Below the pieces are notes generated by a model. That model saw only the letters and a program-made list of their open reading frames with translations. It did not search any database and was not told the origin of the DNA. The translations under genes and the position numbers were made by a program. From the NCBI GenBank assembly GCA_949152475.1, contig OX424569.1:28627950-28691949 (forward strand): a DNA stretch of 64,000 nt. Reading direction: 5' to 3'. This stretch comes from Terebella lapidaria. Taxonomy: Eukaryota; Annelida; Polychaeta; Terebellida; Terebellidae. How positions within the stretch are numbered: the stretch's first letter is position 1; the number at the start of each line of letters is the position of its first letter. Below are positions 27,300 through 59,829 of the stretch, piece after piece.

Positions 27300-28034
27300 C
27301 CAGTCAGGTTTTCGCACAAATCATTCCACAGACACTTGTTTGATTGACATAATGGACTATCTTAAACTACAGGCTGACCACGGTAAATACACTGGTATGG
27401 TGGTCTTAGACCTGCAAAAAGCGTTCGACACGGTAAATCATTGTATATTGACTAGCAAGTTGTCCGCTATGGGTGTAAATGACCAATCATGTAAATGGTT
27501 TGAATCATATTTGTGTAACCGAAAACAAGTCGTTGATGTAAAAGGTACCTACTCAGAATCTATGACCATCACCTGTGGTTTTCCTCAGGGGTCCATTTTG
27601 GGACCTTTATTGTTCCTGGTTTATATAAATGACATGCCTGCGTCCACCGACTGTAAACTTCTACTATATGCTGACGACTCAGCTTTGATTGTATCCCACA
27701 AAAATGTTGAAACAATCGAAAGTACCCTCACTCGAGAACTACATAAAGTATGTGACTGGCTTATAAACAACAAACTCTCCATTCACTTGGGCAAAACTGA
27801 ATCAATTCTGTTCGCCTCCAGCAGGAAGTTGAGTATTGTAAACCAACTAAATGTTGAATGTAATGGTAGACAAATTACACCTAAATATGAAGTAACATAT
27901 TTGGGCTTGGTAATTGACCAATGTTTTTCGGGTAATGTGAATGCTGCAAATGTCATCTCAAAATGTACAAACAAACCCAAATTTCTGTACAGAAACTGCA
28001 TTAATTTTCCTTTCAAATGTAAAAATTAGCCCAA

Positions 28035-35757: not shown

Positions 35758-36419
35758 CTCTTCAAAGCAATTACCCAGTAAGAGTTATTGAGTCTATGAA
35801 ACACAATTGATCATTAGACGTGCATCTCAGACCGAAATATGCCCTTATGATTGTGTATGTGTTATCTTCCCCCTTGTTTTGCCTTCCTCCGTTTTGGTTT
35901 GTGATCAATAACTCGTGAATGTCTGAATGGATTTTGACCACATTTTCGTCATTGGTTCAGCATATAATGCAGATGACCCTCAATTGTTACCCTCGCCCCC
36001 GTCGGGGGGGGGGGGGGGGGGGCGAGGGTATTGCATTTGGGTCTGTCTGTCCGTCTCCCTATACCACGATGGCCAGACACACCAAATTGTCAAATTGTTA
36101 CATTGGCATAGACAGTGCTTTTTATACAAAACTATTAGGTTTTTCTATTTGCCATCTATACCTGACATGGGAATGGATATACTTTGCAACATATCTGAAA
36201 ACTGGAGTGTTATCTCATAAACCTGGTGTACAGTACACATTCAAATCTATCTGTGTGTTAATTTGTTACATTCGACACATGTTTTATTTATTAGTGTATG
36301 CAAATGACGTCTGAGGATTAAGATAGTCCATGAAAAAGTGGCAATTAATAGTGTGTTCATTCATTGAAAAGACCATTTTCAAAATTTCATTTTTTATCCA
36401 ACCTACAAAAAATATGCTC
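35758..36419. other. intergenic with G-run hairpin
   Basis: At about 35989-36032, TACCCTCGCCCCCGTC is followed by a long G run and GCGAGGGTA, a strong hairpin and G-quadruplex-prone tract. The rest shows nothing. Confidence 0.4.
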
Positions 36420-38636
36420 CAGACAGCCAAGACAACAGCCCGAGTCCTTTACGACAGCTTTGTGGTCCATTACGGAATTCCAGCAAAACTTCACTCCGAC
36501 CAGGGTAGAAATTTCGAAAGCCGTGTCATCACGGAGCTTTGTCACCTTCTTGGAACCAAAAAATCTCGCACAACACCTCACCATCCGATGGGGAACGGTT
36601 TGAGCGAGCGTTTCATCAGGACACTCCTTGGAATGCTTGGAACCCTGGAAGCAGACAAGAAAAAGAACTGGAAAGATCACCTGGGTACGGTAACACACGC
36701 CTACAACTGCACCAAGCATACCAGCACAGACTACAGTCCCAATCAGCTCATGTTTGGCCGAGCACCTCAACTTCCAGTGGACATCCAGTTTGGTCTGGAT
36801 GGAATCGTCGCCGACTACGAGGAAGGTCCACCAGAGGCTGCCAACTACACTGAGTATGTGCTGAAGATGAGGGAGCGGTTGCAGTATGCCTGGCAACTAA
36901 CAAGAGCTAGTCAGCGGAAGGCGTCCGGGCGGCAGAAGGAACTCTTTAATGAGCGACAGAGGGGAGCCATCCTGGGGCGTGGTGATGTTGTGCTGGTCAG
37001 GAAGCTTGGCGTGAAGGGCAGGCACAAGCTGGAGAACCGATGGGAGGATGACCCTTGGTGTGTAGATGACCAACCAAACCCGGACATCCCAGTCTACCGT
37101 GTGATTCCTGCATCTGGTGGTGGTAGGGTGCGGACGCTTCACAGGAATCATCTACTCCCGACAGGGGTACTCACGACACTGCCCCAGCACGATGACCACG
37201 ACCCGAGAGAAGAAGGCAATAAAACAGGTCCAGGGATGATTCATCAGAGTCAAGGTCGAGCTCATCTTCCTCAGATGAACAACTGATCCAGCTTGTGTTA
37301 CGACCAAGGACGAAGATGAACACTGGATTGGATGACCTTAACCCTCCCTCTGATCACAGATCTTCAGCAGATCCTGGTGATCTAACAGCCTCTGAGGTTC
37401 CCGAGGATGACGCTAAGGATGATGTGATGGACCCACATGAAGAACCGATCACAGATGCTGAAGAAGCTGGAATCCTGGGATCTGGGACTGAAGAGGCAGA
37501 TCAGTCTGAGACTGAGATGGTGGAAGGGGTGATGGAGCCTGTCGAGGACCAACAAGTCCTGGAGGATGTGGTAGTCCCACCAGAGAGTCCACCGGTCCCA
37601 GCTCCTCGACGGTTCACCAGGCAAAGAAGACCACCCCAGTGGCTTCAGGGTGATGCCTGGCAACTCTCGCAGCTGGCAGATCCAGGAAGTAGTCCGGACT
37701 GGAAGGCCAAGACACAGTTCCTGATTCAGCTGGTGGAGCTGCATGTCTCCCTGCAGACACAACCAGCACTGCTACAGGCAGTAGTGGATTTGGTCAAGTC
37801 CAAACCCGGATCGTAACCTGATTTGATTTTAATGCTCATTTGTACATTTCTCATAATCATTGTCATTCCATTTCAGGTCTAAGGTAATTTGTTTCAGTTG
37901 GGTAATTCCGTCTTGGGATTCGGCAGGACAGCTGTGGTTGTATTTGAATTTTGTATGAATGTGATTCGTTTATTTATTCCTTTACCTGATTGTTGTAATT
38001 ATAACTACTGATATTGCAGGTATGACGGTGAGCAGTCTTGAAAATGATATGATACCGATGTTGATTAATTATTATCTCCGTTTTCATATATGTATATTGT
38101 GTTGTCTTTTAGGGTGTAAATGTCGGGACGACATTTTCCGAAGTAGGGGAGGATGTGATAGTGTTGCCCTCAGGTGGCATTTCTTATGATATGTTTCACA
38201 TTCACTAGGTGGCAGCACTAATTACCATATTAACTTTATCTGTATTCAGCAGGTGGCAGCGGTTCCAGTTATTTTCCAATCACCCTAATTAATTATGCAA
38301 ACCAGTTCCAGTCCAATAATATTTGTTGTTAGTTACAGCCCTGTATTTTCCACCAACTTTCCCTCCAAAACTTCATTCCTTTGTCAACACTCCACCGTAA
38401 AGGTTGTACTTGGAGAATCAAATACTGAATCTGCACAATTGTGTCTTTATTGTCTTTAGATCCCTGGAAGGTTCCTGAGCGGATATATTTATTGCTTGTT
38501 GGCATATTATTAGCCTCAGCCAGGTCAGTTCACAAATATTTCATTCCTAACAGTAGCAGATAGTCATTTACTCATATTCTCAGGGTTAATATCATAACGG
38601 TTACGGATAGTCATTTAGTTATATTTATCATATAAC
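36420..38636 (+). mobile_element. element A: 3' portion of a Ty3/Gypsy-type fossil
   Basis: Recognisable parts are a stretch of integrase catalytic core with C-terminal part (about 36420-37286, with HSDQGRNFES and TTPHHPMGNGLSERF), a further acidic, proline-rich frame (37295-37816), a polypurine tract just before 38154, and the first part of an LTR starting TGTGATAGTG at 38154. The LTR is interrupted at 38636 by element B and resumes after it (49697-49934, ending TTACA, with AATAAA inside). It is an incomplete, broken copy, older than B because B is inside it. Confidence 0.8.
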
Positions 38637-39590
38637 TGTAACAAAACCATGCAACTGCCGCGCTGAAACGTTCGTTAGGAACGGTCACGTGATCTACAAA
38701 GTCCACTTGCGAAGACACCGTTCGCGGAAGAACCGTTCGCGGAAGCACGATTGCGGAAGCATCATCAGCGGAAGCATCGTTCGCGGAAGAACCGTTCGCG
38801 GAAGCACGATTGCGGAAGCATCATCAGCGGAAGCATCGTTCGCGGAAGAACCGTTCGCGGAAGCACGATTGCGGAAGCATCGTCAGCGGAAGCATCAGTC
38901 GCGGAAGCACCGTTCGCGGAAGAGGAGCCTTCGCGGAAGAACCGTTCGCGGACGCAGTCTTCACCACGTGGAGAAGAGTGCGGAAGATACGTTCGCGGAC
39001 GAAGATGCGCGCGCAGCCACCCTGGCTATATAAGGGAGAGCGGACGGCCGCTCTGAGAGCACTGCAACAGCGACATCGACCGTGGGGAGATCGTCACCGC
39101 CACAGCCAAGGGACTCGACGAACTCCGTGCGGACGACTCCTTCTTCAGGGCCTTAGAGTCAACCAGGATTAGACCGACTACCTGGAGAAACCATTCGACT
39201 AAACGGGACGGGAAACTTCAACGGGAAGGGACAGAGAGACGCCGCCGGCTAAGAACTCTTTTTAGTTGTGCCCTCGTGCACTATTTATTTTTGAAATGTG
39301 ATCATACAGTGCTCCATGTCTGAACTTCATATTTGTACGTCACGTGGGTGACCAGCCATACAATTGTAAGTTGATTTGATGTATATAAATCTTCAATTTA
39401 TTTACATCTGAGTTGCTTCTTGCCTAAGTGAAGCCGGTAAGCTACGGAGTGATGATACACCAGCGTTGGGGGACACCAATTTAGTGACGGCTCTCGAATC
39501 ACAACGAGCGGGAGTTACATAAAGTCTATACGATCAGAGAAACCAGGTTTTTTGGGCCACACCGAAAACAAGTCATTACCAAACGTCACA
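38637..39590 (+). repeat. element B 5' LTR, 954 bp
   Basis: It starts TGTAACAAAACC and ends CGTCACA. It contains ten TTCGCGGA words between about 38721 and 39000, including three tandem 59-bp units (38721-38779, 38780-38838, 38839-38897), then TATATAAG at 39027-39034. Just after that, AGAGCGGACGGCCGCTCT can fold on itself near the expected transcript start. Arginine/serine-rich open frames across the array are by-products of the repeat. Confidence 0.9.
39027..39034 (+). promoter_or_regulatory. element B LTR TATA box
   Basis: TATATAAG downstream of the TTCGCGGA array, in GGCTATATAAGGGAGAG context. The 3' LTR carries the same at 49129-49136. Confidence 0.75.
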
Positions 39591-39653
39591 ACTTGGTGCC
39601 GTGACCAGGATCCCCGAGGGTCTACTGCCAGGGAACGAACCTCAGCATCACTC

Positions 39654-42185
39654 ATGTCCGGCGGAAACGACGAAACTGCCCCAGGGAAGACAGGAGGTGA
39701 AGAGGAAGACTCTTCACGGACGGCCTCACTTGCGGACGAGGAAGACAGCGGTTCGCGGAAGCCGACCTTTGCGGAAGGGGGAGACGACCGTTCGCGGGGG
39801 ACGTTCGCGGAAGACGACCGTTCGCGGAAGACGTTCGCGGACGACCACCGTTCGCGGAAGACGACCTTGGCGGAAGAGGCCGACGACCGTTCGCGGAAGA
39901 CAACGTTCGCGGAAGACGACCGTTCGCGGAAGAGCAGCTTCACAGCCAGGGGTAGACGGGACGTTTCGACGAGTGAGGAGCAACCAGGGAGGTCGAGACC
40001 TTCCATGGGCCAGTCGACTAGTCAACAGAGACCCCGGAGCCAGACACCCGACAACCGTTTTCTTTTCAGACACGACTCTGGGTGGCAGCACGATCGAGAC
40101 AGGGAGAGGTCAACCTACCTTGAGAGCGTTAGGAGGGGCCCTGAGTTCCGACGAGTGCTGGGACCGGAGTACGTCAATCTGGACGGGGAGGACGGCGAAA
40201 TCTGGGCGAGGAGGGATCGGCTACAGCTACCGGAGCAGAGTCCAAGTGTGGCACCTCCAGAGAATGCAGCATTGAGACGGCTTTGGGACCAGTCCCAGCA
40301 GCAGTCTGGTGCAACAGAGCAGCAGTCTGGTGCAACAGGGCAGCGGTCGGGTGTGACGAGTCGACAAACGGGAGTGACTGGAGGACGGGTTACTTGGGCT
40401 CCGACCCAAGAGAGCAGCTCGAGAGGGAGAGGACTTTTCGCGGAAGAGAACATTCGCGGACGAGAGGCATTCTTCGGCGACAGGGACGCTTGCAGCCGGG
40501 GATCCTTCGTGGATGAACGGGCTCGTGGGCGAGGGGGAGTCTTTGGTGACGAGGACGCTTGTGACCGGGGAGGGCCCTTCGCGGACGACCACGTTCGCGG
40601 ACGAGGACGACTCGCGGAAGAGAGTGTTCGCGGAAGAGAGGAGTCTTCACCCAGACGGCGGCTCGACGAAAGGAGTGATCCAGGCGACCAATCTTCCTTT
40701 CCAGTTTTTCAGAATAGACGGGGAAGACCATTCGCGGATGAGCCGGTTCGCGGAAGACTCGCGGAAGATGGCGTTCGCGGACGTACATCTTTTGTGGAGG
40801 GACGTCTCCGAGACATCTTGGCGGACGAGCCCGTTCGCGGAAGACTCGCGGAAGACGGCGTTCGCGGGAGAGGCCTGTTCGCGGAAGAACTTCTTCGGGA
40901 GCTGTTGGCGGAGGAGTCCGTTCGCGGAAGGTTCGCGGAAGACAGCGTTCGCGGAAGAGGGGGGTCTTCACCCAGTCGACAACCGAGACAGCCAGCCTCC
41001 TGGAGAAATCCAGCTTCTATTTCAGTCACCCAGGGAGGCCGGAGACAGCACCCTTTCTCATCATCGGGCGATGAGGGGCCTTCATCTGATGGAGGGACCG
41101 AGAGCAGCCATGGTTACCCAGGACGGGGGAGGAGACCACCGAGGCGGGGACCGCCGCTGCACCGACGAAGCCCTAGGCCGAGACGGAGGCAGGAGGACTC
41201 GTCGTCCGAGGACAGCACAGCCTGGAATCAGAACGGCAGAAGGAACCGGAAGATGCTGACCCCTGACAAGTTCGATGGGACTTCCATAGAGTGGCCGGTG
41301 TACCGGGCCCACTTTGACGTCATCGCAGAGGTCAACGGATGGAGCAAGCGGGAACAGGGCGTCTACTTAGCCGGGAGCTTGACAGGAGAGGCGCGACGAA
41401 TGCTGACCAGCCTGAGTCCTGCAGACCGGAGGGACATCGACGTTCTGACCGACAAGCTGACCCTACGATTCGACCCTGACTGTCAGGAGGAGTCCTACAA
41501 GGCGACCTTGGGACAGAGAACCCGCAGGAAGGCAGAGACACCCCAGCAGTACGGCTATGAGTTGCAGCGACTGGCCGGCCGTGGTTATCCGGATCTGAAC
41601 TCCGCAGCTCAGGAGGCTATCGCCTTAGACCACTTCTGGAAGGGCCATCCAGATGGGGACATGAAGGTGATGGCGCTCATGAGGAAGATGAAGACCATGG
41701 AGGAGGCCATAGCGTTCGTGACCCAGTACGAATGTGTCAAACCCAAGCCTGGGAAGCCGGTGATGTCCATAGAGTCGGAGGACTCCGAGCCAGCTCTAGG
41801 ACGGGTCCTACAGCTATTAAAGAACCAGCAGGGAGGCGAGATTACCACCAGTGGGCAGCAGAGCAACCAGCCGAACGTAGCGGGTCTACCCAGACTTCCC
41901 TACTTCAAGGGGCTCTTTGAGAGCCAAGACAGGAAGCTGGATCGACTAATCGAGCTGTGTGAGCAGGTGCTATCCATCAAGCCGAGGGCCGCCACTGCTG
42001 AGAACAAGGGACCAAGCGCTAGGCCGGGACCAGATGACTGTTGGTACTGTGGGAAGCCGGGTCATCGGAAGTACCAGTGTCCAGATCGGCCGCCACCTCG
42101 GACCAAGGAGGAGCGCTTGAGTCGACTAATCGAGGAGATTGGTGAGCGGAACAGTTTGACAGACGAGGTGTCGGAAAACCAGTAG
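39654..42185 (+). CDS. element B gag
   Basis: The ATG at 39654 opens a frame of 843 residues. The first ~500 are low-complexity: repeated FAEDDRSRKTFAD and VRGRGxFAEE units encoded by the same TTCGCGGAAG words seen in the LTR, and a Gln-rich QQSGATGQRSG repeat. Then comes a capsid-type Gag domain (about residues 540-700, KFDGTSIEWPVYRAHFDVIA onward, with TPQQYGYELQRLAGRGYP). Near the end is a CCHC zinc knuckle, CWYCGKPGHRKYQC, for nucleic-acid binding. The long charged repetitive N-terminus is unusual for Gypsy Gag. Confidence 0.85.
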   Translation: MSGGNDETAPGKTGGEEEDSSRTASLADEEDSGSRKPTFAEGGDDRSRGTFAEDDRSRKTFADDHRSRKTTLAEEADDRSRKTTFAEDDRSRKSSFTARGRRDVSTSEEQPGRSRPSMGQSTSQQRPRSQTPDNRFLFRHDSGWQHDRDRERSTYLESVRRGPEFRRVLGPEYVNLDGEDGEIWARRDRLQLPEQSPSVAPPENAALRRLWDQSQQQSGATEQQSGATGQRSGVTSRQTGVTGGRVTWAPTQESSSRGRGLFAEENIRGREAFFGDRDACSRGSFVDERARGRGGVFGDEDACDRGGPFADDHVRGRGRLAEESVRGREESSPRRRLDERSDPGDQSSFPVFQNRRGRPFADEPVRGRLAEDGVRGRTSFVEGRLRDILADEPVRGRLAEDGVRGRGLFAEELLRELLAEESVRGRFAEDSVRGRGGSSPSRQPRQPASWRNPASISVTQGGRRQHPFSSSGDEGPSSDGGTESSHGYPGRGRRPPRRGPPLHRRSPRPRRRQEDSSSEDSTAWNQNGRRNRKMLTPDKFDGTSIEWPVYRAHFDVIAEVNGWSKREQGVYLAGSLTGEARRMLTSLSPADRRDIDVLTDKLTLRFDPDCQEESYKATLGQRTRRKAETPQQYGYELQRLAGRGYPDLNSAAQEAIALDHFWKGHPDGDMKVMALMRKMKTMEEAIAFVTQYECVKPKPGKPVMSIESEDSEPALGRVLQLLKNQQGGEITTSGQQSNQPNVAGLPRLPYFKGLFESQDRKLDRLIELCEQVLSIKPRAATAENKGPSARPGPDDCWYCGKPGHRKYQCPDRPPPRTKEERLSRLIEEIGERNSLTDEVSENQ

Positions 42186-42208
42186 GGCTCATACCAGCCC
42201 CCAACCGT

Positions 42209-45200
42209 ATGGGCCATTGGCAGGTGTGTGCACGGCTTCACAGGCGAGAAGCTCGACGAAGACGTGAAGAACACATTGCCAGGGGGGAATTTTTAGTTTC
42301 ACAGATTTTTAATAGGTTTTTCCGGTGTGCATCCGAAGTAACTGGATGGGCGCAGGAGGAGCTCGAGGATCGAATTCTCGACTATTTGGAGGGCAAGCCT
42401 GTCAACACAGACGGGAGTGCCAATGTACAGCAAACCGATGGAGCCGTGGAGCGTCTAATGCCCCGCGGAGACGTCAAGGAAATGCAGACCGATGGAGCCG
42501 TGGAGCGTCTAATGACCCGCGGAGACGTCGACGAAATGCAGACCGATGGAGCCGTGGAGCGTCTGGGGACCCACGGAGACATCAACGAAGTTTCTGCTAG
42601 CAGCAAGGAGAACCAACAGGTTACAACCTTGAGGCTGGAGGCTGCGAAACAGCAGGGACCCCCCTATGCAACTGAACCACAAGCGGCCGTGAAAGAGGAG
42701 ACGGAGGGCCGGTGGAGCGGAATGACCAAGGGGCCAGCGCAGCAGCTATTGCTGGTGGACGACTCATTACTTATCCGGAGCGGCGGTTCCGAGGGGAGTG
42801 ATTCCCTTAAGACTGACAGAGAGGACCAGGGTGGTGCATCACTGTGGGTGGACGACTCAGTACTTATCCAGGGCGGCGTCCCTGAGGAGAGTGGCAGCTC
42901 TCTTAAGATTGACAGAAATGGCCAGGTGGTGTCGCTGTCAGCCGGTGCCCGAGGCACATTGGCGTGGTATGCGGCGTGCCACGTTATGGGGAAGGCGACT
43001 CGTATGTTGGTGGACACGGGTGCCTCTTCCACCGTTCTGGACGAGTGTCTCTTCGACCAAATGGATGACGAACATAAAGCAATGATAAGGCAGACGAGAA
43101 TAAGGTTACGGGCAGCAACCGGAGACTACTTACAGGTTCAAGGAGAGATGACAGTTCAACTTCTACTGGGCACACGACTCGTGTCGGCAGATGTACTGGT
43201 AGCCAAACTAGGGATCCCGGGAGTGTTGGGGCTTGATGTACTTCAACAGATTGGGGGACAGCTGGATCTGCGTAAGGGCGAGTGGCAGGTGGGCGACACT
43301 ACCGTAGTGATGAGCTCGGGCCACGAGGACGCCGTCTACACACTGGTGACGGAGGAGACGGTCGTCTTGCCACCCTTTTCAGAGATGATGGTGGACCTCA
43401 AGCTGACAGGAAGTGAGGGAGGAGTTCCGAAGGCCGGCCTCGTGCAGTCCGCAAGAGAGCCGTTGGAGGACGACCCCCTCGTAGTGGGACGAGCCCTGGT
43501 ACGACCCCGAGGACGCCTGGTACCGGTGGTACTTCTGAACGCCGGCGCTGGAGCTTGCACTGTGCTGATGGGGACCATCCTAGCCGAGCTTCACGGAATA
43601 GAGGCCGTGATCGACCTAGGATTTCGTCCCGATGGAGGGAAAACAACCCAGAATGAACCTAAAAGGGAACAGTGGTACCGGGAGGAGAGCGGGAGGGAGC
43701 ATGAGCCCCTTACACCAAACTCCACCAAGTGGCGGAACCGGACGCCTGAGCAGCCCGAAACCAGAGTGCACGCCATGCACGCAGAATCGTCGACGAAGAC
43801 ACCAGAGTGCCCGGAGCATTTAGAACCGCTCCTGGAGGGAATGCATCCGAACTTGACGGAAAAGGAGGTGGAGGTCGTCAGCGATCTCCTTCGACGCCAC
43901 CAGCAGGTCTTTATGGGACCAGATGGGAGGTTGGGCCGGACGTCCCTGGCGAAACACGTCATCGACACGGGAGATCACCCCCCGATCAAGCAGCCTCTGA
44001 GGAGAGCCCCGTACTACCAACAAGAGCTGATCGAGGACGAGGTCGACAAGATGTTGAAAGCTGACGTTGTGGAGCCAAGCGACAGTCCATGGTCGTCTCC
44101 CATCGTGCTAGTGAAAAAGAAGGATGGTGCACTGAGATTTTGCGTCGACTACCGCCGTCTAAATGATGTCACCCGGAAGGATGCGTACCCCCTGCCTCGA
44201 GTCGACGAGAGTTTTGATACCTTGTCAGGAGGACGATATTTTTCGACGCTAGACTTGGCTAGTGGTTACTGGCAGGTCGAGATGGACGACAGGGACAAGG
44301 AGAAGACGGCGTTCACTACCCGTAGTGGACTCTATCAATTTAAAGTGATGCCGTTTGGATTGGCGACGGCCGCGGCTACTTTTGAACGTCTAATGGAGCT
44401 GGCACTGAGGGGACTCCAATGGAAGCGTTGTCTAATTTATTTGGACGATGTCGTCTGTCTTGGAAAGACTTTCCAAGAAGCCGTGGACAACCTCGAGGAC
44501 GTGTTCCGGAGACTGCAGGCTGCCGGGCTGAAGCTGAAACCCGCCAAGTGTGAGCTGTTTCGACAACAGGTCAACTTCCTGGGCCATGTCGTGTCCGACC
44601 GAGGCATCCAGTGCGACCCTGCCAAGGTCGAAGCTGTAACAAAAATGGTTCCTCCGACCACCTTGACAGAACTAAGGAGCTTCCTTGGGTTCGTGGGGTA
44701 CTACCGCAGATTCATCCCTGACTTTGCCACCCGAGCGGGACCCCTCAACCACCTGTTAAAGAAGGAAGTCAACTACCATTGGAGCGAGGCTCATCAGCAG
44801 GCGTTCGAGGCGCTGCGTCAACCCCTGACCGAGCACCCCCTGCTGGTGTACCCTGACATGGACCAAGAATTTATTTTAGATACTGATGCTAGCGGCTACG
44901 GAGTGGGAGGCGTCTTATCCCAAGTGCAGGACGGACGAGAGCGGGTGATCGCCTATGCTTCCAGAACCCTGAGGGACACCCAGCGGAATTACTGCACCAC
45001 CAAGCGGGAGCTCCTGGCCATCGTCAGTATGATACACCATTTCAGACATTTCTTGTGGGGGAGAGCGTTCTTACTACGAACCGACCACGCCTCTCTCAAG
45101 TGGCTACTGAACTTTCGGGATGCGGAAGGAATGATCGCTAGATGGGCAGCTCGCATCGCCAGCTACGCCTTCAGGTGTGAGGTCCGACCGGGAGTACAAC

Positions 45201-47281
45201 ACGGGAATGCAGACGGGATGTCCAGATGCCGACAGTGCCGGAGACCGGATTGTCCCGCCCCTCGCCACACCACAAGACCCGAAGGAGAAGAGGAGGCCTG
45301 TCCGACTCAGGAGGAGTGTCCCCTACCCCTGGAGGACCTCTCTGACGAGGATCTGCTTCCACCGATCAGCGGAGAAGGATGGAGCCCCGGAGGACCTCAA
45401 GTTAACATCTTGCGGGAGGTCCCTGTGGAGCCCTGGACGGAGGACTACTATTGCGGAGATGGAGTCGGGATATTCCAGATCTGGGAGGTGCGCTGCCAGG
45501 AGGACCCGAGGACGACTACCCAGCCGACCGAGGAATGCCTGCCTGACCGGAGCCCCCCACAGACGGAGGAAGGAGCCAGGAGCGTCTGCAGAACCCTGCA
45601 TCAGCTCCGCCCCTCTGCCTGGGTTTGGTTTCTCCTGATGATGCTCCTCGCACTGCATGGTTTGGGACCGGAGGTTGTGGTCGGAGCAGCGATCGGCGCG
45701 ACGGCCGACGTGTGGATGCGCTGCCGAGAGGAGCCCTTCCTGGACCCATGCCCCAACCCTGTGATCCGAGATCCAGACAAACAAATGCTAGCTGTCACGC
45801 GGGCTATGGCTACGGGAGGACGCCGGAATCCGATGGAGGGAGCCCCGGAGGCCCAGGTCCTGAATGGTTATTCCCAGGAGGACCTAGTGACCCTTCAACG
45901 AGCCGACCCTGAAGTTGGAGGCATCCTCGGGTGGAAGAATATTTTCACTGAGAGACCTGCATGGCCCGAAGTCAGAACAAAAAGTCAGCAAATGAAGACT
46001 CTGTGGCAACAGTGGGACCAGCTGGAGCTACGTGATGGGCTTCTGTACCGGCGGTACCAAGCGGCTTGCCAGAACGCACCAATCCATCAACTGGTCGTTC
46101 CACAGGTCCTGAGACGCGCCGTCATGAAGGAGGTCCACACCGGCAAGCTGATGAGTCACCAGGGAGTCACCAAAACAGTCCACCGACTAAAAGCGAGAAT
46201 GTACTGGCCGGGTATGACGAAGGACGTGGAGCGTTGGTGCCGGGAGTGCCTGAAGTGTAGTGGGAGAAAGCCGCGACCGGGGCCCAAGTACCACCCCATG
46301 GGAAATCTACCGGTAGGCGATCGGCTAGAAAGGGTGGCCATGGACATTTTGGAGCCTGGAACGATCACCAATTCTGGGAACCGGTATATACTGGTCGTGG
46401 GTGATTATTTCACCAAGTGGACTGAGGCCTACGCTCTACCCAACCATGAGGCTCAGACGGTGGCGGACGTCTTTGTGACTGAGTTCGTGTGCCGCCTGGG
46501 AATGCCAGCCAAGATACACACCGACCAGGGACGAGAGTTCGAGAGTAAGCTTTTCCTTGAGATGATCAAGATCCTAGGAGGGGAGAAGACTCGGACGACC
46601 CCTTATCACGCCAAATCAGACGGGATGGTCGAGCGATTCAACCGGACCCTGCTGAACCTTCTGGCCGTGGTCGTGGACGAGAACCATGACGACTGGGACG
46701 ACCATCTGCCCTACGTGATGGCGACTTATAGAACATCAGTACACGAAAGCACCGGGTGTACACCATTTCGAATGATGATGGGACGGGAGGCAACCACCCC
46801 ATTGGACCTGAGGTACCGGACGAAACCGGACAATTTGGGAGGACCAGTCCCCGAGTGTGCGTCCGAATACGTCGAATGGGTGAAGGAAGCCACCATACAA
46901 GCTCACGAGACTGCCCGAGAGTGCCTGAAGACGGCTACGGTGCGACAAAAGCGCCATCATGACGTAAAATCAGCCGCTCGACATTTTCCGGTGGGCACCT
47001 GGGTGATGTATTGGTACCCTCCAAAGGCTAGACCAAAACTAGGACTAGGGTGGACGGGACCTTATCTCGTTGTGAAGTCTCATCTCGGATGGATGGTGTC
47101 CATACAAGATCGACCCGGTGGCAAGATTAAAGATGTCCACATTGACAATATAAAAAGGTGCTGGTTTACCCCTGAAACCGACGCCTGGATACCCAATCCG
47201 GACGATGTGACCCCAGTCCGGACCCCCAGTGATGACGAGGGACGAGTGGAAAACAGCGGGAATGCAGTCCAAACGATGTAA
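42209..47281 (+). CDS. element B pol polyprotein
   Basis: 1690 residues, opening 23 bp after gag in a different frame with its own ATG. Parts: an N-terminal extension with a 20-residue unit (TDGAVERLMxRGDVxEMQ) three times (about residues 75-130); aspartic protease (LVDTGASSTVLD, near 268); reverse transcriptase (FCVDYRRLND...YPLP, catalytic YLDD near 744); RNase H (FILDTDASGYGVGG, then TDHASLKWLL); a hydrophobic stretch (about 1136-1160, SAWVWFLLMMLLALHGLG); integrase zinc-binding HHCC (about 1305-1350); the D,D-35-E core (DYFTKWTEAY, HTDQGREFES, KSDGMVERFN); and a GPY-type C-terminus (GWTGPYLVVKS). Family members use frameshift, read-through or reinitiation to reach pol; which applies here is not shown. 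Confidence 0.9.
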   Translation: MGHWQVCARLHRREARRRREEHIARGEFLVSQIFNRFFRCASEVTGWAQEELEDRILDYLEGKPVNTDGSANVQQTDGAVERLMPRGDVKEMQTDGAVERLMTRGDVDEMQTDGAVERLGTHGDINEVSASSKENQQVTTLRLEAAKQQGPPYATEPQAAVKEETEGRWSGMTKGPAQQLLLVDDSLLIRSGGSEGSDSLKTDREDQGGASLWVDDSVLIQGGVPEESGSSLKIDRNGQVVSLSAGARGTLAWYAACHVMGKATRMLVDTGASSTVLDECLFDQMDDEHKAMIRQTRIRLRAATGDYLQVQGEMTVQLLLGTRLVSADVLVAKLGIPGVLGLDVLQQIGGQLDLRKGEWQVGDTTVVMSSGHEDAVYTLVTEETVVLPPFSEMMVDLKLTGSEGGVPKAGLVQSAREPLEDDPLVVGRALVRPRGRLVPVVLLNAGAGACTVLMGTILAELHGIEAVIDLGFRPDGGKTTQNEPKREQWYREESGREHEPLTPNSTKWRNRTPEQPETRVHAMHAESSTKTPECPEHLEPLLEGMHPNLTEKEVEVVSDLLRRHQQVFMGPDGRLGRTSLAKHVIDTGDHPPIKQPLRRAPYYQQELIEDEVDKMLKADVVEPSDSPWSSPIVLVKKKDGALRFCVDYRRLNDVTRKDAYPLPRVDESFDTLSGGRYFSTLDLASGYWQVEMDDRDKEKTAFTTRSGLYQFKVMPFGLATAAATFERLMELALRGLQWKRCLIYLDDVVCLGKTFQEAVDNLEDVFRRLQAAGLKLKPAKCELFRQQVNFLGHVVSDRGIQCDPAKVEAVTKMVPPTTLTELRSFLGFVGYYRRFIPDFATRAGPLNHLLKKEVNYHWSEAHQQAFEALRQPLTEHPLLVYPDMDQEFILDTDASGYGVGGVLSQVQDGRERVIAYASRTLRDTQRNYCTTKRELLAIVSMIHHFRHFLWGRAFLLRTDHASLKWLLNFRDAEGMIARWAARIASYAFRCEVRPGVQHGNADGMSRCRQCRRPDCPAPRHTTRPEGEEEACPTQEECPLPLEDLSDEDLLPPISGEGWSPGGPQVNILREVPVEPWTEDYYCGDGVGIFQIWEVRCQEDPRTTTQPTEECLPDRSPPQTEEGARSVCRTLHQLRPSAWVWFLLMMLLALHGLGPEVVVGAAIGATADVWMRCREEPFLDPCPNPVIRDPDKQMLAVTRAMATGGRRNPMEGAPEAQVLNGYSQEDLVTLQRADPEVGGILGWKNIFTERPAWPEVRTKSQQMKTLWQQWDQLELRDGLLYRRYQAACQNAPIHQLVVPQVLRRAVMKEVHTGKLMSHQGVTKTVHRLKARMYWPGMTKDVERWCRECLKCSGRKPRPGPKYHPMGNLPVGDRLERVAMDILEPGTITNSGNRYILVVGDYFTKWTEAYALPNHEAQTVADVFVTEFVCRLGMPAKIHTDQGREFESKLFLEMIKILGGEKTRTTPYHAKSDGMVERFNRTLLNLLAVVVDENHDDWDDHLPYVMATYRTSVHESTGCTPFRMMMGREATTPLDLRYRTKPDNLGGPVPECASEYVEWVKEATIQAHETARECLKTATVRQKRHHDVKSAARHFPVGTWVMYWYPPKARPKLGLGWTGPYLVVKSHLGWMVSIQDRPGGKIKDVHIDNIKRCWFTPETDAWIPNPDDVTPVRTPSDDEGRVENSGNAVQTM

Positions 47282-47282
47282 A

Positions 47283-47486
47283 CGATGACGGGAGCGTTCG
47301 CGGAAGAACCGTTCGCGGAAGCAGCGTTCGCGGAAGCAGCGTTCGCGGAAGTACCGTTCGCGGAAGCACGTTCGCGGAAGCAGCGTTCGCGGAAGAACCG
47401 TTCGCGGAAGCAAGCGAAAAACGTTATTTCGTTCCACGACAATGCTTTTTCCCCCAGATCCCTGGTCCGCGCCTTTTCTATATAAG
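47283..47486 (+). promoter_or_regulatory. element B internal array and TATA box
   Basis: Eight copies of TTCGCGGAAG at roughly 15-bp spacing (47293-47412), then about 65 bp of unrelated sequence, then TATATAAG at 47479-47486. A start codon follows 35 bp later. The order, array then TATATAAG, is that of the LTR promoter. I infer an internal promoter for the third ORF; transcription is not shown. Confidence 0.65.
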
Positions 47487-47520
47487 CAGGCCAGCCTACG
47501 ATTCCGTCATCACTTCAACC

Positions 47521-48618
47521 ATGAACACACCAACTCTGCAGATCATTGAGATACCCGCATTTGCAGACGAAGATTTCGGGGACGTTCCAGATTTCGACTT
47601 GGCTGACTTTCTGCCCCTCGAAGTCGACAAGATGAGCGACCCACCTACCAAGATAGACAAGCCTGACCGGAAGCGGGAGCGCTCGAGGAGCCGGGAGCGT
47701 CGTGAGGAGCCCCGAGGAGGTCGACGGTCCCCTGCCCGGAAGTTGTCCACCGAGAGAGGGCGACGCTGGTGCAGCCCCTGCCGGATCCACGTGACGGCAT
47801 CCAACTTTAGCCGACACGTGGCGACCAAACACACGCAGAAGGAGGGGCGGCACCTCTGCAAGATGTGCAGCCAGCGATTCGCCCGCCGAGCTGACAGAGA
47901 CCGGCATGAGACGTCGCATGCCAGCGGCAACACCCTCAAGCCAGGACGGAGGAGGACGACGACCGACACGCCCGTGTCCGACCCCCGAGATGGTCCGACT
48001 ACTGTGTCTGCCCCTGAGCTGAAGACTGTCAGCTTTGCGGCCAGCGGGACGACCAGCTCCACGCCGTCAAGCCCCCGGGAGGACGCCCCCAGGTCAGAGG
48101 ACGCCCCAGACCCCGAGGACGACCCCCCGAATAGCGAAGAGGAACCGGAGTCTCAGCAGGAGCGGAGAGAGGCGGAATCCCCGGAGGCCCCCACCCCCGA
48201 GGACGACGGACCCCCCGTTCCCAGAGACTCGGCCCCTACCTACAAGCCCCTAGACCTGAGTTGGTACCTCAAGCCCGTTCCGGAGGAGGAGGACCAACTG
48301 CGACCGTATGTGGAGGGCCTGGGCAGAGCGGTCACTGCCGGAGAGAAGGCCCTGGAGGACCTGGCATCCACGATAGCCATGGGACGACGCCACCTCACCC
48401 AAGCGGAGGCTCGGCTCCAAGCCAAGGAGGAGCAGAGACAGCTCGAGGCCGAGGTGCTGCAGCTGCGAGGGGAGGCCTCTCAACGAGAGAAGAGCCACCG
48501 GAAGGAGCTGCGAGCCCACGTCCGAGAGACCAAGCTGCTCCGGGAACAGCTCCGAGCATATACAGACACTCGGGACAGGCTGGCGGAGACGTCCGAAAGC
48601 GAGGTGGATCGCCAGTGA
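47521..48618 (+). CDS. element B third ORF: acidic, C2H2 zinc-finger, coiled-coil protein
   Basis: 365 residues in four parts. Residues 14-36 are acidic with bulky hydrophobics (DEDFGDVPDFDLADFLPL), the composition of an activation domain. Residues 47-72 are basic, Arg/Ser-rich, a likely nuclear signal (KPDRKRERSRSRERREEPRG). Two zinc fingers follow: C84-x2-C-x11-H-x4-H104 and the canonical C113-x2-C-x12-H-x3-H133. Then comes a Pro/Glu/Asp-rich linker and a C-terminal coiled coil (about 280-355) for self-association. It has no signal peptide or membrane span, so it is not an envelope protein despite lying in that position. The layout is that of a DNA-binding transcription factor. I do not recognise a close family. 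An alternative role is a nucleocapsid-like or chromatin-targeting accessory protein. Confidence 0.75.
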   Translation: MNTPTLQIIEIPAFADEDFGDVPDFDLADFLPLEVDKMSDPPTKIDKPDRKRERSRSRERREEPRGGRRSPARKLSTERGRRWCSPCRIHVTASNFSRHVATKHTQKEGRHLCKMCSQRFARRADRDRHETSHASGNTLKPGRRRTTTDTPVSDPRDGPTTVSAPELKTVSFAASGTTSSTPSSPREDAPRSEDAPDPEDDPPNSEEEPESQQERREAESPEAPTPEDDGPPVPRDSAPTYKPLDLSWYLKPVPEEEDQLRPYVEGLGRAVTAGEKALEDLASTIAMGRRHLTQAEARLQAKEEQRQLEAEVLQLRGEASQREKSHRKELRAHVRETKLLREQLRAYTDTRDRLAETSESEVDRQ

Positions 48619-48738
48619 AGTGGAGGGAGAGAGCCCTGTAAACAACAGACAGGCAGGAAAAGACGAAGAAGGAGGAAGAAGAGAAAAGAAGAGAGAGAAA
48701 GGATCAACGGGGACGTTGATCTCCAGAAAGGATGGAGT

Positions 48739-49692
48739 TGTAACAAAACCATGCAACTGCCGCGCTGAAACGTTCGTTAGGAACGGTCACGTGATCTACA
48801 AAGTCCACTTGCGAAGACACCGTTCGCGGAAGAACCGTTCGCGGAAGCACGATTGCGGAAGCATCATCAGCGGAAGCATCGTTCGCGGAAGAACCGTTCG
48901 CGGAAGCACGATTGCGGAAGCATCATCAGCGGAAGCATCGTTCGCGGAAGAACCGTTCGCGGAAGCACGATTGCGGAAGCATCGTCAGCGGAAGCATCAG
49001 TCGCGGAAGCACCGTTCGCGGAAGAGGAGCCTTCGCGGAAGAACCGTTCGCGGACGCAGTCTTCACCACGTGGAGAAGAGTGCGGAAGATACGTTCGCGG
49101 ACGAAGATGCGCGCGCAGCCACCCTGGCTATATAAGGGAGAGCGGACGGCCGCTCTGAGAGCACTGCAACAGCGACATCGACCGTGGGGAGATCGTCACC
49201 GCCACAGCCAAGGGACTCGACGAACTCCGTGCGGACGACTCCTTCTTCAGGGCCTTAGAGTCAACCGGGATTAGACCGACTACCTGGAGAAACCATTCGA
49301 CTAAACGGGACGGGAAACTTCAACGGGAAGGGACAGAGAGACGCCGCCGGCTAAGAACTCTTTTTAGTTGTGCCCTCGTGCACTATTTATTTTTGAAATG
49401 TGATCATACAGTGCTCCATGTCTGAACTTCATATTTGTACGTCACGTGGGTGACCAGCCATACAATTGTAAGTTGATTTGATGTATATAAATCTTCAATT
49501 TATTTACATCTGAGTTGCTTCTTGCCTAAGTGAAGCCGGTAAGCTACGGAGTGATGATACACCAGCGTTGGGGGACACCAATTTAGTGACGGCTCTCGAA
49601 TCACAACGAGCGGGAGTTACATAAAGTCTATACGATCAGAGAAACCAGGTTTTTTGGGCCACACCGAAAACAAGTCATTACCAAACGTCACA
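48739..49692 (+). repeat. element B 3' LTR, 954 bp
   Basis: Same length and ends as the 5' LTR, with one difference noticed, in the segment about 140 bp after the TATA box. TATATAAG at 49129-49136. Confidence 0.9.
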
Positions 49693-49934
49693 TAACTACG
49701 TAGTATCCTGTATCATTCAGTCATTTCTAGCTCTGTGTATTTTATTATTCCATGTATTATGGTTTAGCTCTGTCTGTCTGACACTGCTGTAAATAGATGT
49801 ATGTTCGAACTACTTACCTGATGTGTTCATATTTTACTGGTTGGTTACAAAATATTCAAACGTCTGTTATTATTTTGTTCTCAGTTTTACGGGAGAATAA
49901 AGCTTGATAGAACCTATCGACTCGCTTTATTACA
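49693..49934 (+). repeat. element A LTR, remainder after element B
   Basis: It begins with the second TAAC of B's target duplication, continues the A LTR with GAGAATAAAGCTTGATAG, and ends TTACA at 49934. Confidence 0.65.
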
Positions 49935-52480: not shown

Positions 52481-54302
52481 CACGAGTGTTCTATGACGTG
52501 ACAATGAGACATGACGCGATTCAGCCTTAGTAACATATACCCATGCAGATAACGTACAACCACCGTGACGTCATAATACAAAATATTTGACGACCAGGGG
52601 TCCGTTTCACTAAGATAGCGAGCTCGTTATATAAAGTCCTCATTGAAGTTTATAACAATGGAAATAAAAACACAAAAATAACCATGACAACATATTGTTA
52701 ACGATGGATACAACGAGCATTTTTAACGATGGAAATCTTAGTGATTGATAACCCTCGTTATTAACGAGGATTCTTTAATTTAACGAGAATTTTGCTGCTA
52801 AGGAGCTCTTTATGATCTTATAGTCGAGTTGCGGGTTGTATCCCTTCCACAGTGAACCTAGAAATTGTTGAAACAGCAAGGTTTTTTTTAGTGATATGCA
52901 TTCATATATGTCTCCAGGAGATTATGAGCTTTGTTGGCACTGCGCCAACTTTGGGGAAATTTTTTTATTCGTTAATTAGTTAATTTTTATTCGTTAACCG
53001 CCAAATATGGATATTCAGCATAATCAAATATATAACTTTTTTAATAATAGGCCTAGAATCAAGTGTGATAGCACTTTTCTATACAAGCCTGTCCCAGGGA
53101 ATTCATTTCTGGGGAAACATTTGTGATCCAAGGTCAATGTGACCACATAAGATCAAGATCAAGGTCAGTTTTCACACAAAAATGTCAAAACTTCTGGTTT
53201 AAGGGGATATGGCTATTTTTTTTGCATTTCTTGATTTCACTGATTCACTCCTGTGTTTATGTAATACTACTACACGAATGCGTTTTGAATTAACTTCAAA
53301 GTGACCACATAAGATCCTGATCAAGGTCAGTTTTCACACAAAATTGTCAAATCTTCTGGTTTAAGGGGATAGGGCTATTCTTTTGCATTTCTTGATTTCA
53401 CTGATTCACTTCTGTGTTTATGTAACACTACTACATGAATGCGTTTTGAATTAACTTTAAGACGGTTCATTAATTACTGATGTGCAATATATCGTTGACC
53501 AATATCCAAGCCTTCAACGTGACGTTGGCTTGACATGTGGCCTTGATGTGATCTACAGAGTTGCTGTTCGTAGTCTGCTATGATTCTTGTCATTATTTGG
53601 TGCACCCAAACGATATAATCTGACTATTATGTGTACTCATAAGTTCATGTCCATTACTGCTTGATCGATTGCTCATCCTCACTGTTCAATATCATCTTCT
53701 CTTTTAGGGACAACGTAAAAGCGAACATCACGAACCGGTTCACTGTGCATATGAAATAATGTGCATGTTGTTAACAGTTATGGTCCAGATGGGTCTCTGT
53801 TGATACAACGAGATGAAATCTCATCTTCCATTTCCCAAATATAATCTTTTATGCTGACATCCAGATGACACAATTTCAAGTGCCTAGCATAGCAGCATAG
53901 ATGAGTAGGACGCCTGGTAAGTTATTGTCTGGCCGAGTTAGTGACCCAACCCTTATTGGCTTCCCCTTCTCTTGACATACAGATTATCACAATTTTTTTT
54001 ATTAGTGAGGAATCAATCGGTTGTCAATACGGCACTGCGAAAACGTGCTCCCTAACTGGTCCGATGTTGCTTCTGTTGCATTATCCTCACCTGTCGAACA
54101 GTTATGAGAGTCACCTTTCTCCAAAGCTGGGCATCTTATTGCATGATGAAGCAGGTGTCTCAAGCCGTTGATTCTCTGTCAGGTGGTCAGAGTTCTCTGC
54201 GACTACACTGATATTTCAGTGCTTCTAGTTATTGAACGTGTGTGATGTCATCTACAGAGTTGCTGTTCCGATGAAAAAGTAGGAACGGACTCGATGCCAA
54301 CG

Positions 54303-55750: not shown

Positions 55751-56086
55751 GGTTTATCACACATAAGTAATCGATGCACCATTCCAGGTAACAATAGTCA
55801 TTCCAACAATGCGAACTATACACAGCAGTGAAAAGGTAAAATCAACTGGTGTGGGTGAATGTCCATATCCCTTAAAACCGGGAATTTTGACAATTTTGTG
55901 TGAAAACTGACCTTGACCTCGATCTTATACGGTGACCTTGACCTTGGATCACAAAAAAATCACCAGAAATGAATTCCTTGGGTCAGACTTGTGTAGAAAA
56001 GTGCTATCACACTTGATTTTAGGCCTATTACTAAAAAAAGTTATATTTTGGTTATGCTAATTTTCCATATCTGGCGGTTAGTATGC

Positions 56087-57939: not shown

Positions 57940-59646
57940 CTACTTTTTCAACACACAAAAGGTGGAATCGCAACAATCCCCTGTTTTTTTACACTCCATG
58001 TAATTTCTCAATGTGAACACATTGGGCCCGACTTCAGTCTCAATGTACTTGTTGTCAGCATTGGCAAGTTCATAGGTATAGCTCTCAACAGTTCCAAGTT
58101 TGCAGTTTTCCCTTTTGGGGGAGAAGGCCTCTCGAACGTCATCCAAAAACTCTTCATATGTAGCATCATGTTTCGGCTGGAACTGAGGGCGAGATTTCGC
58201 ATGTGCGTCATACCCCATTTTCTGGCGGGTTGCAGCTTTTTGCAGATGATCTTGCGCAAACCCATGGGCAGCTCTGATAGCAGTTCGGAGATACTCGACG
58301 TATTCGGGTCCGCATGGAGGTAGCGGTTCTGGGTCATACGTAGGAAACATCAAGTCAACAGGCAAATTGCATTCATGTCCGTATACCATCAGGTGTGGTG
58401 TGCACCCGGTTGAGGAATGCACTGAGGTGCGGTACGCCATGAGTACATATGGTAAGTGCAAATCCCAGTCATTTCCACGATCACTGACGAATGCACTCAA
58501 CATATTCAACAAAGTCCGATTTAATCGTTCGACTTGACCGTCACTTTGTGGGCGGTAGGGCGTGGTCCGAATTTTCTTAGCGCCCAGAAGGCGTACAACG
58601 CTCCGAAATAATGACGACTCAAATTCCGTTCCTTGGTCGCTGTGTATGGCTTTCGGTACCCCGTGGTACACGATCCAACGATTCACCAGAACATCGGCGA
58701 CATTTTTGGCCGTATGGCGGCGGAGCGGGAATGCGTCCATGTACTTTGAAAAGTAGTCCGATATGACAAGAATGTACCTGTTTCCACGTCCGGTAACTTT
58801 ATGGGTATCTAAGATATCCATGGCAATACGATCGAATGGCGCCCCAGTTGGTAGTTGCGTTAGAGGCGATTTCTTGGGCGCTGGTTTTCCTTTCCGTGAC
58901 ACACACTGCGGGCAGCGGGCGCACCAGCGGGCAACATCCAAGGCGAGACCTGGCCAGTAAAACCGGCGCTTTACTCTCTCAACAGTCCGTTGTATTCCGA
59001 GGTGGCCTACGACCTTGAGGTCGTGGAGTTGGTGTAGAACCACCGTTCGTAATGCCGCTGGTAACACAGTTTGTACGACAGTCCGGCCAGCTGGGTCCGG
59101 CTTGGTATTTCGTATGAGGACTCCATCCTGTAGCGCTAACAAAGTCCATCGTGAAACCAAAGTTTTCACTTCCTCGCCGTAGCGGGTGACTTCCTTTGAC
59201 GTGGGTTTCGTTCCGTTCAATACCCACTGTCGTACGAATCCGACGCTCGGGTCGGCTTGCTGTGCGGCAACGATATCGGCACTGGAGTAGTCGGATAACC
59301 ATGTTTGTCTGTTCAACTTCGCATCCAGCGCTCGCACACGGGCGGCCTGGCGCACTGAGATCATCCGAGACAAGACCGGTGATGTCATAGTATCACTGTC
59401 CAGGGGGTCTTTCTCGGGTCCGACGGGAACCACCTCAATCCGTCTGACGGTGCGTGACGACACCCCTTCGTGACGATTAGTCCGTGATAGCCTGCGCGGC
59501 AATGGTTCCGACACCCCTTCGTGGAGGGATTCCGTACCTGAAGTCGACGAAGCACACTTGGCGCACACCCCTTCGCGGAGCGGAAGGGCCCGTGGTGTCG
59601 GCGCCAACTTGAGCGGTGTCGTGTTGGTGGCTGTGAACACAACCAC
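57940..59646 (-). CDS. element C integrase region
   Basis: 568 residues. A zinc-binding HHCC module (HQLHDLKVVGHLGIQRTVER ... CARCPQC) and a D,D-35-E integrase core (ISDYFSKYMDAFPL, HSDQGTEFES, PQSDGQVERLNRTL) are present. The last ~70 residues (from ATYEEFLDDVREAFSP, with CKKTGDCCDSTFC) do not look like integrase and may derive from adjoining sequence. Confidence 0.8.
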   Translation of the reverse strand: MVVFTATNTTPLKLAPTPRALPLREGVCAKCASSTSGTESLHEGVSEPLPRRLSRTNRHEGVSSRTVRRIEVVPVGPEKDPLDSDTMTSPVLSRMISVRQAARVRALDAKLNRQTWLSDYSSADIVAAQQADPSVGFVRQWVLNGTKPTSKEVTRYGEEVKTLVSRWTLLALQDGVLIRNTKPDPAGRTVVQTVLPAALRTVVLHQLHDLKVVGHLGIQRTVERVKRRFYWPGLALDVARWCARCPQCVSRKGKPAPKKSPLTQLPTGAPFDRIAMDILDTHKVTGRGNRYILVISDYFSKYMDAFPLRRHTAKNVADVLVNRWIVYHGVPKAIHSDQGTEFESSLFRSVVRLLGAKKIRTTPYRPQSDGQVERLNRTLLNMLSAFVSDRGNDWDLHLPYVLMAYRTSVHSSTGCTPHLMVYGHECNLPVDLMFPTYDPEPLPPCGPEYVEYLRTAIRAAHGFAQDHLQKAATRQKMGYDAHAKSRPQFQPKHDATYEEFLDDVREAFSPKRENCKLGTVESYTYELANADNKYIETEVGPNVFTLRNYMECKKTGDCCDSTFCVLKK

Positions 59647-59829
59647 TGGTTTGGAGCTGTGAGCGTAGCTCGGTTTAACGGAAGGTTCTTGCTCCGCAGT
59701 TCCTTCCTCTCTTAGTTTGACGGCCTGGCCTGTGGTGGTGGCTGGGCCGGTGGCGTTGTAGCCATTGGCTGAGAGTTCGAGTTCGGTATACTGATCTGTC
59801 CGTTATTCCGATTTGCGCCAGAGCGTGGC

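Follow-up and report, generated by a model that had tools for sequence, protein, structure and literature searches.

The locus analysed here is a long terminal repeat (LTR) retrotransposon of the polychaete Terebella lapidaria, located at 38637..49692 of a 64,000-nucleotide (nt) stretch of contig OX424569.1, which is referred to below as the window. It was found to be a single intact-looking element of 11,056 nt, comprising gag, pol and a third open reading frame (ORF), ORF3 (47521..48618, 365 amino acids, open), which encodes a proposed self-regulator. An array of one short word, the TATA box CTATATAAG and the five-mer AGATC are common to the U3 region of the LTR and to the region directly before ORF3, and the ORF3 protein itself may be the reader of the word. 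The evidence base consists of one copy of the element and one relative. Apart from the target-site duplications, to which no strand applies, all features of the element given below lie on the plus strand.

The two LTRs (38637..39590 and 48739..49692) are 954 nt long and differ from each other at 1 of 954 sites. They are flanked by the target-site duplication TAAC (38633..38636 and 49693..49696, the right copy adjoining the end of the 3' LTR); a duplication of 5 base pairs (bp), ATAAC, is possible if the LTR end is placed one base earlier. ORF1 (39654..42185, 843 amino acids) is open and gag-like, with a CCHC knuckle that falls below the Pfam threshold (PF00098, 18.7 bits against a cut-off of 20.8). 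ORF2 (42209..47281) is pol, in which Pfam places protease, reverse transcriptase (RT), RNase H and integrase in this order. This order of pol domains, together with LTRs bordered by a short target duplication, is that of Ty3/Gypsy elements, and no env ORF is present in the element. The original description of a whole-looking, young Ty3/Gypsy element of 11.06 kb is borne out by the length, by the single difference between the LTRs and by the three open ORFs. The GC content is 38-39% in the flanks and 57-64% in the coding parts of the element.

The word TTCGCGGAAG occurs 39 times exactly in the forward direction of the window and never in reverse. All 39 copies lie within the element, on the sense strand, with eight in each LTR, 15 in gag and eight at 47297-47410. 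The shorter GCGGAAG matches 67 times when both strands of the window are counted, as opposed to 4.5 expected, and this count was reached in 0 of 100 shuffles. When up to three mismatches from TTCGCGGAAG are allowed, the U3 array (38721..39001, repeated in the 3' LTR at 48823-49103) comprises 18 words, the gag array (39713..40957) comprises 35, of which the 15 are exact, and the array before ORF3 (47297..47410) comprises eight words, all perfect. In the 18 words of U3, the three bases of TTC vary 5, 4 and 7 times and the ninth base, which follows GCGGA and is either A or C, varies twice, whereas GCGGA and the last G never vary. In the 35 words of gag, the bases of TTC vary 5, 1 and 6 times, those of GCGGA 1, 3, 0, 0 and 2 times, and the ninth base 13 times. 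The core GCGGA-M-G is kept strictly in U3 and mostly in gag. These counts come from the words with up to three mismatches, as a separate tally of 57 words was anchored on GCGGA and cannot test the conservation of GCGGA. Among the 512 five-mers, GCGGA ranks third in U3, seventh before ORF3 and fourth in gag. The original prediction had placed the same word ahead of ORF3 and in the LTR promoter and had taken the full word as the repeat unit; the word does recur in both places, but the 15-word array in gag had been overlooked, and the conserved core in U3 is limited to GCGGA-M-G.

The array in gag is written across the coding sequence in all three frames. Within 1300 nt from the start of gag, GCGGA falls 16, 8 and 5 times in the three reading frames, and the words are translated as FAE, VRGR or RSRK, depending on the frame. 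GCGGAAG was observed 20 times in gag, compared with a mean of 2.4 and a maximum of 8 in 2000 synonymous codon permutations. On these counts, what recurs in gag is the nucleic-acid word and not a peptide. As tandem duplication also lifts the excess over codon shuffling, the test points to an origin or a constraint at the level of nucleic acid, and not to which of the two. The U3 array and the array before ORF3 have an exact stretch of 29 nt in common, spacer included, so one array was probably copied from the other. Their observed/expected CpG ratios are 1.79 and 1.91, respectively.

Within the window, CTATATAAG is found only at 39026, 47478 and 49128, each time downstream of a word array. The first (39026..39034, with its 3' LTR copy at 49128-49136) is the TATA box of the LTR, and the second (47478..47486) is a candidate internal TATA box, 43 nt upstream of the start codon of ORF3; approximately 0.0004 occurrences would be expected in the 239-nt gap between pol and ORF3. 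With regard to the sequences that follow, the LTR has CACTGCAAC (39060..39068) 33 nt past the first T of TATATAAG, at the presumed start site, and the internal region has CACTTCAAC (47511..47519) 32 nt past the same T. AGATC follows in both, at 39088..39092 in the LTR and at 47540..47544, inside ORF3, in the internal region, in each case 61 nt past the first T of TATATAAG. We take CACTGCAAC and CACTTCAAC to be initiator (Inr)-like and AGATC to be similar to the downstream promoter element (DPE), by comparison with the consensus sequences. If the A of CACT is counted as +1, AGATC begins at +28 in the LTR and at +29 in the internal region. In 1000 shuffled pairs, a match of 8 of 9 bases within one base of register was obtained 26 times, an in-register five-mer 83 times and both 7 times, in a test devised after the match had been seen. 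A scan of the gap between pol and ORF3 for promoters of bacterial type, a type not relevant here, gave no match. The earlier claim that the LTR and a putative internal promoter share an array followed by a TATA box is thus reinforced by the identity of the TATA boxes and by the Inr-like and DPE-like words.

The ORF3 protein begins with an acidic segment (residues 1-38, 47521..47634) that contains ten D or E and a single K, a putative activation domain, followed by 44 residues of a basic, RS-rich stretch with 18 K or R. Two finger-like segments come next: finger 1 (residues 84-104, 47770..47832) has the pattern C-x2-C-x11-H-x4-H and finger 2 (residues 113-133, 47857..47919) the pattern C-x2-C-x12-H-x3-H. 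After an acidic, proline-rich middle part, the protein ends in a long helix, probably a coiled coil (residues 257-364, 48289..48612). In the AlphaFold2 model, which was built from the single sequence and has a mean predicted local distance difference test score (pLDDT) of 64, the block pLDDT of this helix is 91-97 over residues 271-360, and finger 1 is modelled as a hairpin and helix with a block pLDDT of 77-80 over residues 81-120. A structure search with this model was uninformative (best E 1.4), and the best sequence match among solved structures was tramtrack (2drp, E 0.029). The finger matches in Pfam fall below the curated cut-offs. Consequently, the acidic N-terminus and the basic stretch of the earlier description of ORF3 stand, and the long helix fits its coiled coil, but its C2H2 fingers must be regarded as degenerate, on account of their spacing, the Pfam result and the model. 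In a protein search, the entry for ORF3 itself has two member sequences from a single contig, the longest being 1767 nt; this contig is shorter than the window and hence a different record, which may be a transcript or a piece of assembly and on which we base no claim.

In the published recognition code, the residues at positions -1, -4 and -7 before the first histidine specify the 5' base, the middle base and the 3' base, respectively, with R reading G, N reading A and D reading unmodified C (PMC12264921, in part). Finger 3 of TFIIIA, with K, N and T, offers a parallel for the threonine of finger 1, as its Thr at -7 is too short for its base (same source). Under this code, finger 2 of ORF3, with R, D and R, is read as GCG, and finger 1, with R, N and T, as G-A-any. 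As the fingers bind antiparallel, the predicted site is GCG-GA-N, which fits the core GCGGA of the array, and the variable base of the core coincides with the Thr position of finger 1. The comparison of finger specificity with the word, which had been proposed along with the circuit, thus results in a match, obtained in a reading that was not blind. Within GCG, the C of the CpG would be read by an aspartate rather than a glutamate, which suggests that the predicted binding may be sensitive to methylation. The residues at -7, -5, -4 and -1 of finger 2 are R, A, D and R in both ORF3 and the relative described below, and we take them to be those that give the engineered RADR variant of Zif268 (1a1i and others) its name. 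Presumably, this variant accepts GCA in addition to GCG, which makes the third base of the finger 2 triplet less certain than the first two.

With regard to relatives, 8000 candidates were scored with the RT, and the best 120 of 7973 were taken. The organisms named among these 120 are mostly animals, with a few plants and one bacterial bin. One relative, P0038, a contig of 11,977 nt from ENA whose RT is 67% identical over the region, was the only one of the best 120 of 7973 to show a C2H2-like pair, and this pair is located after pol. The scan was made first on the 31 of the 120 relatives with an integrase landmark and was then repeated on all 120, with the same result. Over 128 residues behind the C-terminus of pol, P0038 has 14 AE dipeptides, of which the first 11 are spaced at exactly 7 residues (21 nt), and the three residues that precede AE vary throughout. 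Read back from the protein, not from DNA, each repeat is compatible with GCNGAR (GCN-GAR) at a spacing of 21 bases. In P0038, as in ORF3, Cys and His of finger 1 are spaced by 11 residues, and 8 residues separate finger 1 from finger 2. The recognition positions -1, -4, -5 and -7 of both fingers are the same in P0038 and ORF3 in 6 of 8 cases, compared with 4 of the 40 other non-ligand columns of the fingers (hypergeometric P 0.0004). The controls for this comparison were two alignments, with tramtrack and with ZBTB7A, and a search of the PDB with the P0038 pair; structures of the RADR variant appear among the matches of that search. The two finger pairs match with a BLAST E of 3e-5, and their score was reached in 0 of 500 shuffles, which do not control for general C2H2 likeness. 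The C-terminal parts of the two proteins are weakly alike (score reached in 22 of 500 shuffles), and the N-terminal parts are not alike (174 of 500).

A common descent of the fingers of ORF3 and P0038 is favoured, although not proven, by their place after pol and an array, by the unusual spacing and by the recognition residues. The co-occurrence of array and third ORF that was to be looked for in relatives is found in part, in P0038, where a two-finger segment that may be related to ORF3 follows an array compatible with the word. Four scans of viral contigs, by protein or by alignment, yielded no DNA of the relatives. A further scan of viral contigs, aimed at three spaced GCGGAAG words, returned 75 stretches, none of which had a tblastn match to pol at E <=1e-3. 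In genome contigs, 12 loci from bacterial bins were found, with an identity of 35-61% in their best pieces. Other short peptide repeats are present in the C-terminal tails of pol in P0040, P0043 and P0050, such as SALRP/SDLRT with a period of 15 nt in P0040; other elements may likewise carry arrays of other words in these tails.

The best reading of these data, which is tentative and to which we assign a probability of about 0.42, is that this Ty3/Gypsy retrotransposon has its own transcription circuit running through the array. A basal internal promoter near 47478-47544 could produce ORF3. The two fingers would probably read GCGGA-M-G, finger 2 contacting GCG and finger 1 GA-N, and ORF3 multimers held together by the long helix would probably occupy the dense same-strand arrays. 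The acidic N-terminus could then recruit the transcription machinery and raise the activity of both the internal promoter and the LTR promoter, and the outcome could be a delayed positive feedback of the element. For the two-promoter circuit proposed originally, the shared promoter words, the code match and P0038 count in favour, while promoter firing, binding and activation are predictions, and ORF3 may protect or repress rather than activate. The array in gag is the part that the circuit explains least; it may be a downstream enhancer or may serve for an anti-silencing coating. If the circuit operates as proposed, a Ty3/Gypsy retrotransposon has independently evolved the two-promoter feedback logic of foamy viruses. 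It would offer a compact protein-DNA pair that can be read by the code. It would also give access to the co-evolution of a transposon protein with its word and to selection for self-activation versus protection from silencing.

A broader reading is possible but more doubtful. The element would belong to an animal Ty3/Gypsy lineage in which a two-finger reader and CpG-containing word arrays at the LTR promoter, the internal promoter and gag form a methylation-responsive switch. Reader and word would have been conserved as a pair, whereas the fingers otherwise diverged until 4 of the 40 columns outside ligands and recognition positions were identical. Through the aspartate at the CpG, silenced copies would stay off and unmethylated copies would activate themselves.

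Several observations weigh against the circuit. Finger 1 has 11 residues between Cys and His instead of the canonical 12, and the modelled helix of finger 2 begins at residue 114, too early for a canonical finger, with a pLDDT of 59 over residues 121-130. The code was applied once the word was known, and arginine is common at recognition positions. Given the non-blind reading, the short finger 1 and the common arginine, we estimate the chance of a coincidental match at approximately one or a few per cent, and not less. Two protein searches, the second of which scored 8000 candidates, returned no homologue of ORF3 besides itself. With regard to the array, GCGGA is imperfect in gag, and exact words are more numerous there (15) than in either LTR (8) or in the gap between pol and ORF3 (8); as the array also fills gag, it is not a mark of promoters alone. 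A spliced ORF3 mRNA is possible, given a candidate donor in the leader and acceptor-like sites before ORF3. Apart from these points, the frame of ORF3 is open for 95 codons ahead of its ATG (47236-47520), a stretch that takes in the array and overlaps the end of pol, which is in another frame, so that a frameshift fusion is formally possible.

The comparison with P0038 has its own weak points. Tramtrack shares 4 of the 8 recognition residues of ORF3 and ZBTB7A shares 1 of 8, as counted by eye. In a phmmer search of ORF3 against the 120 relatives, nothing was found at E <=100 scaled to the size of the PDB, and the PDB search with the P0038 pair gave a match to CTCF fingers with an E of 7.5e-5 (26 bits); the likeness of the two finger pairs may therefore be a general C2H2 likeness. 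Position -7 of finger 1 in P0038 is Asp, which corresponds to C as the third base in the code. The finger segment of P0038, in the region that corresponds to the open stretch ahead of ORF3, is fused in frame to pol. Moreover, AE is followed by G in 8 of 11 repeats and then by P in 6 of 11, and hence a constraint on the peptide is possible in the P0038 array.

Among the alternatives, the one that survives best, although we consider it unlikely, is that ORF3 coats the dense arrays and holds off host silencing, with promoter activation as a by-product. The single direction of 39 of 39 words and their tandem arrangement would suit this role, as would the CpG ratios of the U3 array and the array before ORF3. 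The gag array, distant from any CTATATAAG, suits coating better than promoter activation. On the other hand, every CTATATAAG in the window lies downstream of an array, the N-terminus of ORF3 is acidic, and the sites of VANC, the anti-silencing protein discussed below, are mainly non-coding (PMC5735166, in the part drawn on).

It is less probable still that ORF3 comes from an LTR-initiated mRNA by splicing and has RNA as its target, as an export or packaging factor might, the word then being an RNA site of gag, of the region ahead of ORF3 and of the 3' U3. The candidate donor CCG/GTAAGC in the leader (39437..39438, 3' LTR copy at 49539) is tied for second of 533 GT sites, and two acceptor-like sites have their first exon bases at 47490 and 47458, ranking 4 and 10 of the 955 AG sites in the element, the latter behind a tract at 47443..47457; the ranks were obtained with rough matrices. 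All exact words are on the sense strand. In the literature, Cer1 CERV is described as having a regulatory protein from a spliced mRNA that serves the export of genomic RNA (PMC10309623, in part), and the ORF3s of LTR retrotransposons are said to be typically expressed from spliced messages (PMC5408684, in part). One of four stretches of array folds with a z of -2.1 (6 of 200 shuffles), but the remaining three have z values of -1.4, 0.7 and 0.7, which indicates that there is no general RNA fold. Splicing would also leave the TATA-Inr-DPE likeness ahead of ORF3 unexplained. The U3 array lies upstream of the presumed start, where a DNA site of the LTR promoter would be placed, and the fingers match the DNA code.

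Similarly improbable is a host factor driving both promoters, of the ETS type (GGAAG) or the STAT type (TTC-N3-GAA), with ORF3 as an unrelated accessory. The word contains what we take to be the consensus sequences of both families, which counts in favour. Motifs before the TATA box and before env in Sirevirus LTR elements have been discussed as possible sites for stress factors (PMC2829016, in part). TTC is lost in 8 of 18 U3 words and GCGGA never, and since TTC varies in the U3 words and GCGGA does not, a STAT-type factor is weakened, the ETS type remaining untouched. A host factor would leave unexplained both the match between finger code and core and the pairing, in P0038, of a core-compatible array with 6 of 8 recognition residues. 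Finally, it is very unlikely that the arrays are functionless repeats grown by slippage and recombined among U3, gag and the gap between pol and ORF3, with a coincidental finger match. The exact 29-nt stretch and the codon-shuffle excess, which tandem growth alone would also raise, are consistent with this origin; the core kept in U3 while its flanks vary, the use of three frames within an open gag and the separate array of 21-base period in P0038 argue against it.

The remaining features of the element and of its surroundings are as follows. A primer binding site region (39591..39615), which we take to resemble the end of an invertebrate tRNA-His, follows the 5' LTR, and a purine-rich tract (48725..48737) adjoins the 3' LTR; Rfam and tRNA scans of the window gave no matches. 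Pol carries, close to its start, three copies of a 54-bp unit (42430-42589) that give TDGAVERL peptides, and residues 1136-1164 of pol, in the interval between RNase H and integrase, are hydrophobic and by eye resemble a membrane-spanning segment, which is unusual in pol. Just upstream of the studied element, 35919-37816 (plus strand) is a fragment of another element with a piece of integrase core at 36327-37286. The remains of a second Ty3/Gypsy-type element lie at 57940-62828 on the minus strand, with an integrase ORF at 57940-59802 and a weak gag match at 60051-60713; no exact TTCGCGGAAG word lies in them. Another piece of reverse transcriptase (PF00078) is found at 27289-28029 (plus strand). 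A putative cyclase domain (PF04199) occurs three times, at 16669-17379 and 22394-23098 on the plus strand and at 24426-25223 on the minus strand, perhaps as a small cluster of host genes. At 52995-53460 and 55857-56080 there are direct repeats separated by approximately 160 bp; inverted copies of them, 78-83% complementary, lie at a distance of about 2.5-2.6 kb.

The published systems considered below are cited from portions of their papers, except where the main text is named. In foamy viruses, Tas binds sites in the LTR and in the internal promoter, and basal activity lies with the internal promoter (PMC7390438). The element resembles the Tas/Bel-1 arrangement in having a regulator ORF near its 3' end, a candidate internal promoter ahead of it and an expected action on both promoters (PMC7390438). 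It differs in its C2H2-like fingers, in the absence of an env ORF and in the long word arrays that its promoters share, whereas the foamy promoters are little related in sequence (PMC7390438). No match to the Tas family was obtained among the Pfam matches; the element would thus work like this system without being a member of it.

VANC, encoded by VANDAL DNA transposons of Arabidopsis, acts on dense motifs of the same orientation that have grown in tandem, and has an anti-silencing effect (PMC5735166). The common ground is a sequence-specific protein encoded by a transposable element, with binding being predicted in our case, together with dense short motifs of one orientation (PMC5735166) in the encoding element, as found here with 39 of 39 exact words forward. 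In contrast, VANC belongs to a DNA transposon, is a protein of another type, causes loss of methylation and has a motif that is mainly non-coding (PMC5735166), whereas in our element gag accounts for 15 of the 31 exact words that remain once the 3' LTR is set aside. No match to the VANC family was present among the Pfam matches. In Sireviruses, a repeated motif precedes the TATA box of the LTR and is found again 5' of env (PMC2829016). As in our element, a repeated, CpG-rich word stands ahead of the TATA box in the LTR and once more before the third gene (PMC2829016). However, Sireviruses are plant Ty1/copia elements with a palindromic CGG-CCG word, an element-encoded reader is not described in the part of the paper drawn on, and an internal promoter was, according to the same part, not conclusively identified (PMC2829016); the core GCGGA-M-G is not palindromic.

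Cer1 CERV of Caenorhabditis elegans likewise has an extra regulatory protein beside gag and pol and the same Gypsy/Ty3 order of pol, but it relies on a spliced mRNA and nuclear RNA export, and no word array is mentioned in the portion of the paper used (PMC10309623). The two-finger domain of tramtrack (2drp) has S-N-F-x-R-H at the helix of finger 1, as ORF3 does, but it has 12 residues between Cys and His in finger 1 and other recognition residues in finger 2, at the E of 0.029 given above. The ORF3s of bdelloid elements comprise lipase, exonuclease, env-like, TM and CC types, and 'zinc finger' occurs 0 times in the main text of that paper (PMC5408684). Among the openly licensed papers retrieved, judged by title and the start of the abstract, none described a Gypsy element with such an arrangement. 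In the portions of the literature compared, no precedent joins a Ty3/Gypsy element, a candidate internal promoter that bears a word array, and a reader encoded by the element itself. We regard the element as a variant on known functional themes.

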